Source: Pseudomonadales bacterium (GTDB lineage: Bacteria; Pseudomonadota; Gammaproteobacteria; Pseudomonadales; Azotimanducaceae). Taken from it: a DNA stretch of 57,533 bases. The notes below the pieces were generated by a model. The model did no database searches and was not told the origin of the DNA. It saw only the letters and a list, made by a program, of their open reading frames with translations. How positions within the stretch are numbered: the first letter of the stretch is position 1; the number at the start of each line of letters is the position of its first letter. The stretch covers positions 1 through 57,533 of the forward strand of contig JANQKS010000057.1 of assembly GCA_028281005.1 (NCBI GenBank), read 5' to 3'. The position numbers were made by a program, and so were the translations under genes. Positions 47,508 through 56,634 of the stretch are shown here, in pieces.

Positions 47508-48689
47508 TTACCTTGGTACACTCCCTCCCCAACGCAACCCAAGAGAAATCCCAACTGGCAGCCAAACCAAAAACCAAGCCTCGCCAATCTTGTCCAAAAG
47601 TTCATGGCCGTCTAACAAGAAGGCCGACGAACCTAGCACAAGTACAGAGAGGGCCAGTTTCGCATCACGCGTTTCATACCGAAGCAAGACCGACCGCAAA
47701 GACAACACTAAAACTACTAGATACATTCCCAAGGCGACGACACCTCCTTGGTACCACAAGGCTAAGTAGAGACTATGAGGATGCGCGTGCACAACGTCGT
47801 CCGTGCGTATCTCATCTAAAGTGTTGATACCTAAACCCACCCACGGCGACTGCACAATTCGCTCGAGCGTATGAGACCAGATGCTTAAGCGAAAGCTATC
47901 ACCGCGAGGCAGTAACAATTCCCTGGTCGTGTCGTTCAACACTAGAGCCAGGAACAGAACTCCGCCGACGAATACCATAGAGACCACAGCGACCAAAAGT
48001 TGTCGTGGGTCTTTGATTTTCGTTGCTAAGAGATACGTACCCCCTCCGAGGATCGTACTCACCCACGCTGTGCGCGAATCCGATAACCCGATACAGACGA
48101 CCGCGAGCAGAATTGAGGCCGCAGCAAACAGCTTCCACATGAAGTGTTGCTCCTCATGCAGCAACTTGAGTGTGAAAACCAACACCACACCAAAAACCAG
48201 TGCCGCGATCACATGCGTGTCGAGTTGTCCTAATCCATTCAAGCGGCCGTCTGCGGGATCCGTCAGGGTAAAGTTGACCAATGCCCCGGCCATTGCCACG
48301 CCGCCCACCACCGCTAACGCCTTGCCCATCCATCGCTGCATCTGTCCCCGCAGTTGGCATTCCGCCACTGCCACAAGGAAGCAAAACACCAAAAGCCCTC
48401 TGCTCCAGACGGTAAGTACCTCACGCCATTCGAATGGCTCTGACCAAAAAGCACTCAAACACAACCAGATGAGCAAGGCAACTGTTAGCCGCATCATCGG
48501 TAACTTGAATACATCCATCCAATGCCGAATGGTTGCAATCATCACCAGGGCTAAAATGTAGGTTGGATAACTCGCAGCACTCTGGCTTTCTAATAAGAAC
48601 ACCGATACAAAACACAGGACAATGAGTACTGCCATCCATTGGATGCGGTCACCCGAGTACTTTTGCAGGAATGATTGCGCCTGAGGCAT
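47508..48689 (-). CDS. O-antigen ligase/polymerase (Wzy/WaaL-like) membrane protein
   Basis: About 393 residues with ten or more hydrophobic segments. A large periplasmic loop in the second half holds LLLPRGDSFRLSIWSHTLERI and WVGLGINTLDEI (the H/R-x-x-G-type Wzy_C region), then further helices. This family joins or polymerises lipid-linked glycans on the periplasmic face. ATG 48689 is preferred; an in-frame TTG at 48710 would add seven residues. It converges on the GT gene with only 9 bases between. Presence beside a Wzm/Wzt pair suggests ligase more than polymerase activity, which is inference. Confidence 0.82.
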   Translation of the reverse strand: MPQAQSFLQKYSGDRIQWMAVLIVLCFVSVFLLESQSAASYPTYILALVMIATIRHWMDVFKLPMMRLTVALLIWLCLSAFWSEPFEWREVLTVWSRGLLVFCFLVAVAECQLRGQMQRWMGKALAVVGGVAMAGALVNFTLTDPADGRLNGLGQLDTHVIAALVFGVVLVFTLKLLHEEQHFMWKLFAAASILLAVVCIGLSDSRTAWVSTILGGGTYLLATKIKDPRQLLVAVVSMVFVGGVLFLALVLNDTTRELLLPRGDSFRLSIWSHTLERIVQSPWVGLGINTLDEIRTDDVVHAHPHSLYLALWYQGGVVALGMYLVVLVLSLRSVLLRYETRDAKLALSVLVLGSSAFLLDGHELLDKIGEAWFLVWLPVGISLGLRWGGSVPR

Positions 48690-48715
48690 GCGGGCAGTGT
48701 AACTGAACAAAGCTC

Positions 48716-48877
48716 AAGCGCGAACGACATCGGAGCTCGCGCTTTGAGTTCGGTGGCGACCACGGAGCCACTAAACCTCGAGCAACTCCGATCTCAAACC
48801 ACAGAACAGGTTAGTCAATCTGACCGACGTTTTGCGCAAAGCGCAAAACTCGCTAAGGTCGCGCTCAAAGCGCGACC
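48716..48877. repeat. Cluster of G+C-rich hairpins downstream of the tRNA
   Basis: Three inverted repeats: GGTCGCGCT-CAA-AGCGCGACC (48857-48877, 9-bp stem), TTTTGCGC-AAA-GCGCAAAA (48830-48848, 8-bp stem), and a longer one around 48716-48760 (CTCAAGCGCGA / TCGCGCTTTGAG, one extra base). The first lies 4 bases downstream of the tRNA 3' end and the second has an A/T-rich base, so they may stop or process the tRNA transcript. The shared GCGC core suggests related copies. Confidence 0.5.
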
Positions 48878-48881
48878 GACA

Positions 48882-49238
48882 TGGTGGGCCCACCAGGACT
48901 CGAACCTGGGACCAATGGATTCACATACTCGCAACGTTTCCGCTGCGTGCGGACTATCTCACCTCCCTCGTCTTTACGTTAGGGAGCGGGACGCTCTTGC
49001 CTGTCATTAAGGACACTCGATCCAGTTTGGATCAGCCCTCAGGTAGTCTCTGCACCTTCCGGCAGTGTACTGCCGGCTTGGCTCAGGATTGCCGGTGTAC
49101 GTCATGGTTGACAACACTACGGTTTCCCTGAATTCATCCCGTTCATCCTGGTTCTTTCGAACTCAGGCGCACCTTTGCAAGTCTTTCAACTTTCACAATT
49201 GATGAGTCCACTGCTCTAACCAACTGAGCTATAGGCCC
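48882..49238 (-). tRNA. tRNA-Ile(CAU) split by a group I intron
   Basis: Exons are 49202-49238 (37 nt, 5') and 48882-48921 (40 nt, 3', CCA encoded). Joined, they make a 77-nt tRNA: acceptor GGGCCTA with TGGGCCC, D-arm AGCTCAGTTGGTTAGAGC, anticodon loop CTCATAA with anticodon CAT, and T-arm CCAGGTTCGAGTCCTGG. The C4-G69 and C5-G68 acceptor pairs and the CAU-AA loop agree with the known TilS recognition elements of tRNA-Ile2, so I call Ile rather than Met. The intron lies between positions 36 and 37, directly after the anticodon. The gene follows rpoD on the same strand, past its terminator. Confidence 0.92.
48922..49201 (-). ncRNA. Group I intron (IC3-like) in the tRNA-Ile(CAU) anticodon loop
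   Basis: A 280-nt self-splicing intron without an ORF. On the minus strand the conserved core is AATCCTGAGCCAAG (49077-49090, P4/P6 region), the P6 hairpin CCGGCAG-TACA-CTGCCGG (49059-49076), AAGGTGCAGAGACTA (49044-49058, 5' P7) and GATAGTCC (48951-48958, 3' P7). P1 is exon TCAT paired with intron GTGA, giving the U-G splice-site pair. P2 (49147-49167) and P9 (48930-48947) both end in GAAA tetraloops. The intron ends in the expected G at 48922. Position and P1 match the Azoarcus tRNA-Ile(CAU) intron (about 205 nt), but this one is longer. Confidence 0.93.
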
Positions 49239-49301: not shown

Positions 49302-49328
49302 AAAACCCCGGGAACTGCCCGGGGTTTT
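49302..49328 (-). terminator. Terminator after rpoD
   Basis: AAAACCCCGGG-AACTG-CCCGGGGTTTT forms an 11-bp stem and 5-nt loop with T-runs on either side, so it works in both directions. It lies 20 bases after the rpoD stop codon and before the tRNA gene. Confidence 0.92.
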
Positions 49329-49347: not shown

Positions 49348-51195
<1,848 letters not shown>

Positions 51196-55593: not shown

Positions 55594-56634
55594 ATGTTGG
55601 TATTAGGAATCGAAACCTCCTGCGATGAAACCGGACTGGCACTGTATGACAGCCAGGCAGGTTTGTTGAGCGAAGCTCTGTATAGCCAGGTTGATTTACA
55701 TGCTCAATACGGCGGCGTGGTCCCCGAGCTGGCCTCTCGCGATCACATCCGCAAAATCACACCATTGACGCAAAGGGTATTGGAGGATGCAGGCAGAACC
55801 CTGTCTGACCTCGACGCAGTGGCGTACACCGCCGGGCCCGGCCTAATGGGTGCGCTGCTGGTTGGCGCCACATTCGGCCGCACCTTGGCCTGGGCGCTGG
55901 ATATACGCGCCATTGAGGTGCATCACATGGAAGCCCATTTATTGGCCCCCCTACTCAATGCAGACGTCAACGCAGACGCAGCGCCTGAGCTCCCTTTTTT
56001 GGCTCTGCTGGTGTCCGGTGGCCATACTCAGTTGGTCAAAGTGGCAGACCTTGGCAGCTATGAATTGTTGGGAGAGTCGGTGGATGACGCCGCCGGAGAA
56101 GCTTTTGACAAAGCCGCCAAAATGCTGGCGTTGGGTTATCCCGGCGGGCCACGTATTGCCGAAGCGGCGCGCCGTGGTAACGCAGCACGCTTTCGCTTTC
56201 CGCGGCCCATGACCGACCGTCCGGGTTTGGACTTTAGTTTCAGCGGTCTAAAGACCTACACGCTCAACACCGTGAACGAACATGCCCCTTTAACTGAGCA
56301 AGATATCGCCGACATCGCCTTGGCTTTTGAACAAGCCGTGGTGGATACCCTATTCATCAAGTGCCGCCGGGCGGTAGAGGCATCTGGATTAAGTGACTTG
56401 GTGTTGGCCGGTGGTGTCAGCGCCAACCAGTCGCTGCGTCAAAAACTAGAGCTGGACTTGGATGCGAACCTGCACTACGCACCGCTGGCGCTGTGTACTG
56501 ATAACGGGGCGATGATTGCCTACGCGGGTGCGTTGCGTTTACTCGCGGGCGAACAGGCGGAGCTTGCGGTCAACACGCGCCCGCGTTGGCCGATGTTCGA
56601 GTTGCCGCCCATTTCTCCGGCCACCGCAGCCTAG
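55594..56634 (+). CDS. tsaD: tRNA threonylcarbamoyladenosine synthase subunit TsaD
   Basis: A 346-residue ASKHA-fold enzyme that transfers the threonylcarbamoyl group to A37 of ANN-decoding tRNAs. Motifs: [16 protein letters not shown] at the N-terminus, [11 protein letters not shown] (metal-binding His residues near 110), [12 protein letters not shown] near 137, and [14 protein letters not shown] near 275. A target includes tRNA-Ile, so it would modify A37 next to this window's intron insertion point. The stop is 2 bases before folB. Confidence 0.96.

Follow-up and report, generated by a model that had tools for sequence, protein, structure and literature searches.

A group I intron with a P7.1 domain, most likely of phage type, in the anticodon loop of a gammaproteobacterial tRNA-Ile(CAU) gene

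The window (the whole stretch of 57,533 nucleotides that was analysed) carries at 48882-49238 on the minus strand a tRNA-Ile(CAU) gene that consists of a 37-nt 5' exon, a 280-nt group I intron and a 40-nt 3' exon (Table 1). The Rfam covariance model Intron_gpI (RF00028) matches at 48930-49188 (-) over its entire length (model positions 1-253 of 253) with 78.9 bits and an E-value of 1.9e-18, the gathering cut-off being 50 bits. An initial annotation, made from the letters alone, had placed a group I intron in this anticodon loop and had proposed such a covariance search as a check; the search bears it out, and the coordinates given there for both exons and the intron are correct to the base. 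Empty sites place the junction between U36 and A37: an uninterrupted 77-nt tRNA-Ile(CAU) gene identical at 77 of 77 nt to the joined exons is present in 8 of the 97 genomes searched, 7 of them within the genus of the window as grouped by the search tool. The earlier reading had noted that a normal tRNA remains once 280 nt are removed. The joined 77-mer also folds more stably than its shuffles (z -3.04). The splitting of this tRNA-Ile(CAU) gene by a group I intron is thus confirmed. ARAGORN run with default settings on the window reports zero tRNAs; when introns are allowed, it reports a 357-nt gene with the junction one base off, under the name Gln(ctg).

Table 1. Features of the interrupted tRNA-Ile(CAU) gene and its upstream neighbourhood, in window coordinates
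Feature	Position	Strand	Basis and remarks
rpoD	49348..51195	(-)	NF004208, 867 bits (cut-off 555); directly upstream of the tRNA, on the same strand
Terminator-like hairpin behind rpoD	49302..49328	(-)	Consensus match only; 1 found, 0.6 expected in shuffles
5' exon of tRNA-Ile(CAU)	49238-49202	(-)	Ends in anticodon CAU (U36); equals positions 1-37 of uninterrupted tRNAs (8 of 97 genomes)
Group I intron, 280 nt	49201-48922	(-)	First base C, last base G; RF00028 match and empty sites
P1, 5' strand	49201..49204	(-)	C34 A35 U36 and intron nt 1
Expanded P1 loop, 27 nt	49174..49200	(-)	Length by comparison of introns
P1, 3' strand, internal guide GGUG	49170..49173	(-)	Intron positions 29-32; U36.G wobble; invariant in 33/33; fold agrees
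P2, GAAA tetraloop	49147..49167	(-)	8/8 pairs with double changes; 84.3% of cells paired
P3, 5' strand	49135..49141	(-)	33-intron alignment
P4-P5	49083..49131	(-)	P4 49131-49126/49088-49083; P5 49122-49120/49094-49092; P5 84.8% of cells paired
P6 and P6a	49054..49082	(-)	P6a with double changes in 7/7 pairs
P7, 5' strand GACUA (guanosine site)	49044..49048	(-)	RF00028 match and 33-intron alignment
P7.1 domain in J7/3, 44 nt	49000..49043	(-)	Between P7 and the P3 3' strand
P7.1 basal helix	49043-49040/49003-49000	(-)	Invariant across 33 aligned introns
P7.1a distal helix	49039-49035/49014-49010	(-)	100% of cells paired; 3/5 pairs with double changes
Bulge UAAUGA	49009-49004	(-)	Within the P7.1 domain
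P3, 3' strand	48987..48993	(-)	33-intron alignment
P8	48963..48986	(-)	33-intron alignment
P7, 3' strand UAGUC	48952..48956	(-)	RF00028 match and 33-intron alignment
P9, GAAA tetraloop	48930..48947	(-)	Double changes in 6/7 pairs
3' exon of tRNA-Ile(CAU)	48921-48882	(-)	A37 to the encoded CCA; equals positions 38-77 of uninterrupted tRNAs

The neighbours are those named in the initial annotation: rpoD lies upstream, and tsaD, given there as some 6 kb off, lies 6.4 kb away at 55594-56634 (TIGR03723, 417.4 bits). In the interval from the rpoD terminator to the tRNA (49301-49239 (-)), a TAGAAT with a G+C-rich stretch behind it may represent the -10 box of the tRNA gene; a consensus scan for promoters near the tRNA returned no complete one. 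Sub-threshold Rfam matches around the locus were taken as chance. A 111-aa open frame (48675-49010 (+)) runs antisense to the 3' exon and part of the intron and contains the stretch HQDSNLGP, presumably as in spurious antisense-tRNA proteins; on the intron's own strand, the list of open reading frames holds none of at least 100 aa within the 280 nt. The tRNA-Arg(CCU) gene of the same genome is uninterrupted.

In the set of 97 genomes searched for relatives, the window's own among them, group I matches occur in 33 genomes and exceed the cut-off in 30. Of the 29 relatives' loci that were examined, 25 are this tRNA, interrupted at the identical position, two (L043 and L046) are the same interrupted gene cut by a contig end, and the other two are a tRNA-Leu (L057) and a 23S rRNA gene (L059). 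Within the window's genus, 21 of the 39 other genomes carry the tRNA-Ile intron (18 complete, 2 contig-cut, 1 represented only by a 5' exon that continues into the intron), 9 have an uninterrupted gene (7 at 100% identity and one each at 96% and 90%), and 9 are uncalled. Wider draws, in which other host genes are included, gave group I matches in 56 of 369 genomes of the class (41 over the cut-off) and in 34 of 398 genomes of the phylum (16 over the cut-off). A pattern made of the 5' exon and the guide hits at least 120 stretches in genome contigs; among the matches listed, 116 are real (106 complete interrupted tRNA-Ile genes and 10 cut by contig ends) and 4 are due to chance. By record title, and again among the matches listed, the complete genes come from Gammaproteobacteria (84), Pseudomonadota without class (15) and Verrucomicrobiota (3), with one each from Planctomycetota, Actinomycetota, Halobacteria and an unplaced record; many of these records are metagenome bins, and single odd titles may be misbinned. 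The titles include Dyella, Lysobacter, Luteimonas, Rhodanobacter, Dokdonella, Woeseiaceae and Granulosicoccus. All matches in plasmids (8 records) cover the exons only, judging by the query parts covered. Given the frequency among relatives, the number of pattern stretches and the presence of the P7.1 signature described below in 23 of 369 genomes of the class (own genome included; 0 for a reversed-pattern control), the initial view that the intron is uncommon for a gammaproteobacterium has to be abandoned.

This recurrence also disposes of the idea that the split gene is an assembly artefact or a chance tRNA-like arrangement. Several relatives' contigs do end near the locus (within several hundred bases of the tRNA in L034, L037, L040, L043, L045, L046, L047 and L053), as the idea would have it, but the window's locus lies inside a 57.5-kb contig, and the 106 complete like cases among the 120 pattern loci listed refute it, leaving it a negligible chance. 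Separately, duplicated 3' exons in three genomes (G016, G023 and G011) were considered as the trace of an element integrated at the 3' end of the tRNA; this was rejected, and they are treated as assembly duplicates because each of them (L328, L329 and L330) lies at the end of a contig and includes the last bases of the intron as well.

Several other group I introns were seen in passing. In 13 genomes of the window's genus (L061-L072 and L074), tRNA-Arg(CCU) contains a group I intron that lacks P7.1, and 12 of the 13 also have the tRNA-Ile intron. Within the window's family, group I introns lie inside 23S rRNA genes (L059, L075 and L076). In one genome (G141; L290/L298), an intron without P7.1 interrupts tRNA-Ile(CAU), and its best P1, drawn by eye, points to the U33/C34 bond, a third arrangement in that tRNA. 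Another intron (L299, in G701) sits in an apparent protein gene with polymerase-like flanks, as judged by eye, perhaps within a prophage.

For structural comparison, 150 loci were parsed and 132 complete tRNA-Ile introns were kept; the 18 dropped are 12 contig-cut true introns (L043, L046, L118, L135, L158, L177, L179, L184, L194, L214, L219 and L224), four chance pattern matches (L142, L166, L186 and L202) and the two other genes, L057 and L059. From 125 distinct sequences, 123 of them without N, and with the divergent L120, L133, L197 and L223 omitted, 35 were picked by identity; omission of L044 and L218, which have long inserts, left 33 diverse introns, the window's included, over which a P1-P9 structure drawn on the window's intron was scored. 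The structure holds well: 96.7% of the cells are paired, 230 cells are changed on both sides, and the covariation score is 0.334, compared with 0.125 for shuffles (none of the 500 scored as high) and no more than 0.094 with slid partners. P2 and P5 are the weakest helices. The other 32 introns share 110 invariant columns, and the window's intron conforms to every one of them.

The CAU/GUG-type P1 and the GAAA-capped P2 and P9 noticed at the outset are all present. Two GUG triplets occur within the first 45 nt of the intron, at intron positions 6-8 and 30-32; use of the upstream one as the guide was rejected, as both the alignment and the fold pair the GGUG(C) of the second site with CAUC, and when the window's 5' region is folded, this CAUC/GGUG helix comes out best. 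GGUGC occurs within the first 45 nt of each of the 132 parsed introns; the motif was part of the search pattern for 106 of them and was not used for the 26, window included, that were found via Rfam. The U36.G pair at the 5' splice site is present in 33 of 33 introns, and the terminal G, likewise recognized in the initial annotation, in 132 of 132. The P1 loop of the window is among the longest, at 27 nt where the median is 5 (measured to the first GGUGC in 132 introns); it is exceeded in L120 (30 nt) and, by alignment, in L171 (28) and L198 (31). The extra hairpin predicted within this loop does not stand out from shuffles (z -0.07).

These data bear on a further alternative, namely that the locus is a pseudogene or holds a decayed intron, with AUA served by another gene. 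The window's genome (5.14 Mb, 98.67% complete) is a draft in 135 contigs, from which a second copy could be missing. Within this draft, however, no second or uninterrupted tRNA-Ile(CAU) was found; the best matches for the joined tRNA are the two halves described here, and RF00028 has a single match. Of the 33 tRNA matches in the genome, 30 were typed, and only two of these (L024 and L025) have the anticodon CAT; from their features, we take both to be initiator tRNA-Met genes. Moreover, both exons are identical to those of intact relatives, no invariant column of the intron is broken, and TilS, which tRNA-Ile(CAU) needs, is encoded in the genome (145.9 bits, cut-off 93.6). We consider decay very improbable. 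A second TilS_N match (L333, G000:C38:73-573) falls below the cut-off (61.8 bits) and possibly belongs to a different PP-loop enzyme.

The most distinctive part of the intron lies in J7/3. Instead of leading straight to P3, as in IC3 introns, which have neither P7.1 nor P7.2, P7 is followed by a domain that reads CCUG-AGGGC ... GUCCU-UAAUGA-CAGG and folds more stably than its shuffles (z -2.36). The module is present in all 132 complete tRNA-Ile introns, in 128 by pattern (125 in the CCUG form and 3 in the GCGG form) and in 4 by eye (L053, L058, L120 and L141, which have longer or divergent versions). The GCGG/CCGC form of the basal helix belongs to L133, L197 and L223, which are tRNA-Ile introns with long branches from records titled Verrucomicrobiota. 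A P7.1 between P7 and P3 is what IA2 phage introns have; in the window, 6 nt lie between it and the 3' strand of P3, and the P7.2 of such introns is missing.

The same type of intron is found at the 36/37 bond of other tRNAs, specifically tRNA-Thr(UGU) (L233, L235, L238 and L241) and tRNA-Lys(CUU) (L244), to which ARAGORN gives other names or junctions. By eye, the guide follows the anticodon, with U.G at the splice site in each case: CAU with GUG, UGU with GCA for Thr, and CUU with GAG for Lys.

In viral contigs, the P7.1 signature occurs in at least 120 stretches, compared with 1 for the reversed pattern. When 20 short viral loci with the signature were compared with Rfam, 15 had an RF00028 match over the cut-off that covers the signature, and the other five (L375, L380, L383, L418 and L420) had none over the cut-off; at least one viral signature match (L366) looks like chance. 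The conserved letters of P7.1 are present in the psbA intron of cyanophage S-PM2 and in an intron of Vibrio phage 11895-B1 (RF00028, 83.6 bits; located in the terminase gene according to the RefSeq record). A phage search with the whole gene yielded 266 records, among the best 20 of which 19 are matches to the exons; with the intron alone, 27 records were found (best E-value 4e-5). Phage group I introns have traditionally been assigned to IA2, a subgroup described as heterogeneous in the available text of PMC11878797.

The presence of the same module in phages can be weighed against a different scenario, in which the intron is an Azoarcus-type (IC3) tRNA-Ile(CAU) intron that shares descent with the betaproteobacterial one and has gained a hairpin in J7/3. 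One intron of our set, L311 from another genome of the class, interrupts tRNA-Ile(CAU) at the same bond and has no domain between P7 and P3; we take it to read like the Azoarcus tRNA-Ile(CAU) intron. Its site and guide triplet are the same as in the window, as the gained-hairpin scenario predicts. Core trees were built with the J7/3 domain cut out. In the tree that lacks phages, the 33 P7.1 introns of bacterial tRNAs fall on one side of a branch supported at 90/83, which is not starred, and the 23 gammaproteobacterial tRNA-Ile introns group together at 96/94. The trees with phages, for which 25 phage introns were chosen from among 73 of the 137 signature matches, those that fit an anchor pattern, rest on 166-167 columns. 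The first of these, with 75 rows, splits 56 against 19 at 100/100; the P7.1-type L223 (verrucomicrobial) falls on the other side, with L311, and L300, then unlabelled, falls on the P7.1 side. Holding all rows labelled P7.1 together in this tree gives an AU p of 0.089, and the gammaproteobacterial tRNA-Ile introns cease to be a single resolved group (3 changes; united as a clade in 23% of the bootstrap trees). In this tree, 10 of 60 rows had been skipped by the anchor pattern. They were restored in the final tree, to which S-PM2 was also added, and there a branch supported at 98/98 separates 60 P7.1 introns from 26 other introns, or 57 from 26 at 100/99 once the three verrucomicrobial rows are left out; the position of L223 shifted to the P7.1 side once its two sisters and the eight other skipped rows were added. 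L300 was relabelled P7.1 after its tree position was seen and its J7/3 re-read, and thus is not an independent test row.

The cores of the window's type and those of the IC3-like tRNA introns accordingly lie across this branch, L311 among the introns without P7.1. When the gammaproteobacterial tRNA-Ile introns are forced together with L311, a single, long-branched row, the cost is 26-41 log units with AU p of 0.043, 0.10 and 0.174; forcing all tRNA-Ile introns at 36/37 together gives an AU p of 0.056. The phylogenetic comparison with Azoarcus-like introns proposed in the initial annotation hence places L311 apart in the tree, and the AU tests reject a joint clade at most marginally, the two higher p values being compatible with the gained-hairpin scenario. 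Against that scenario stand the branch supported at 98-100 that sets the P7.1 introns, those of phages among them, apart from the other introns even with the hairpin removed, the position of L311 with the introns that lack P7.1, and the conserved letters that the module has in common with phage introns. We regard common descent with the Azoarcus intron as unlikely. What remains of the match to Azoarcus suggested at the outset is the 36/37 site and the guide triplet GUG; kinship is made unlikely by the extra P7.1 domain and by the grouping with the phage introns and the P7.1 introns of tRNA-Thr and tRNA-Lys.

The mode of inheritance was addressed with rpoD, which left 78 of the 132 loci for comparison. 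Over these, the intron and rpoD distances correlate (Pearson 0.52, Spearman 0.38; 0 of 2000 permutations as high), which indicates that the intron is for the most part inherited together with its locus; the nearest neighbour is the same in the intron and in rpoD for 25 of the 78. In an rpoD tree of 39 loci chosen for having rpoD in the flank (24 with the intron, 15 empty), the presence of the intron requires at least 5 changes, 2 of them forced by starred branches. The window's species is nearest to intronless relatives with large genomes, at weak support (81/26); it is possible that the intron was lost in these intronless sisters or regained locally in the window's species.

Taken together, we consider the locus to be a phage-type group I intron of the P7.1 lineage, most likely self-splicing, that occupies the U36/A37 bond of the only tRNA-Ile(CAU) gene detected in this genome and is not of the Azoarcus type, and we assign this reading a probability of about 0.83. 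The best reading of its history is that the intron has mostly been kept vertically, is of phage type by its P7.1 module and its side of the core trees, and sits at a site that another lineage uses too; the Azoarcus type probably reached that site separately. On a broader scale, we lean towards the view that two group I lineages have colonised the same bond of tRNA-Ile(CAU), namely the Azoarcus type in betaproteobacteria and a P7.1 lineage shared with phages that has spread through Gammaproteobacteria, with a variant form in records titled Verrucomicrobiota and Planctomycetota. The P7.1 lineage would move among tRNAs whose anticodons end in U by a change of guide, and would now be mostly vertical in an essential tRNA.

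The chemistry we propose is the established one of group I introns, applied to the anatomy seen here. Pairing of the anticodon CAU itself with the internal guide GGUG would give P1. A guanosine docked in P7 would attack after U36, and the freed U36 would then attack after the last G of the intron and join A37, so that the intron would leave with its terminal G. The joined loop CUCAUAA would be open to TilS, for lysidine at C34, and to the TsaD pathway, for t6A at A37. Given that the anticodon loop exists as a loop only once the exons are joined, splicing would be needed, and it is reasonable to infer that it precedes the formation of both lysidine and t6A. Since TilS has to recognise the very bases with which the guide pairs, it becomes testable whether splicing comes before or after modification. 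The P7.1 lineage is abundant in phages and recurs at this position of gammaproteobacterial tRNAs, with the guide altered to fit anticodons that end in U.

Since standard tRNA finding misses the gene, genomes with the intron can seem to be without a tRNA that reads AUA. The authors of tRNAscan-SE themselves state, in the accessible text of their paper, that the program was not designed for such introns (PMC8450103). The set of introns described here also offers a natural experiment on how a ribozyme is retargeted to different anticodons, and on whether introns are exchanged between tRNAs and phages.

Among known systems, the available text of a 2014 review gives group I introns of bacterial tRNAs only for cyanobacteria, alphaproteobacteria and betaproteobacteria (PMC4033280). 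In the gammaproteobacterial Beggiatoaceae, putative group I introns were reported in tRNA-Arg and tRNA-Leu, according to the portion of the paper available (PMC4853749). Introns of tRNA-Arg and tRNA-Leu(UAA) are, like that of the window, group I introns in the anticodon loop, but in the Arg and most of the Leu introns examined here P7 leads straight to P3, the tRNA-Leu intron L057, which has P7.1, being an exception. As for tRNA-Ile2, the accessible text of PMC8450103 describes group I introns in Acidovorax and Burkholderia that tRNAscan-SE does not detect; the interrupted tRNA is the same as in the window, and these hosts are betaproteobacteria. By title and abstract, the literature searched contains no P7.1-type introns in gammaproteobacterial tRNA-Ile, with the proviso that Supplementary File S5 of PMC8450103 may list such genomes; within this literature, the presence of the P7.1 phage-type lineage at the tRNA-Ile(CAU) site and its breadth in Gammaproteobacteria seem to be new.

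The Azoarcus pre-tRNA-Ile(CAU) intron, of subgroup IC3, agrees with that of the window in the tRNA, the 36/37 site and the guide GUG. It differs in J7/3: the Azoarcus type has no extension between P7 and P3, as seen here in L311 and, in the available text of PMC4498298, in the Azoarcus and Synechococcus ribozymes, whereas the window has P7.1. According to the same source, what sets the T4 td ribozyme apart from these two otherwise similar ribozymes is a P7.1/7.2 extension between P7 and P3 (PMC4498298, available text). With phage introns, the agreement extends to this very region. The module CCUGAG...CUUAAUAACAGG is common to the window's intron and to the introns of S-PM2 psbA and Vibrio phage 11895-B1, both of which also lie on the same side of the core trees. 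Room for a further, P7.2-like hairpin, which the window's intron lacks, exists in 9 of the 73 anchored viral matches. The two phage introns are hosted by phage protein genes with an adjacent endonuclease gene, whereas the host in the window is a tRNA gene.
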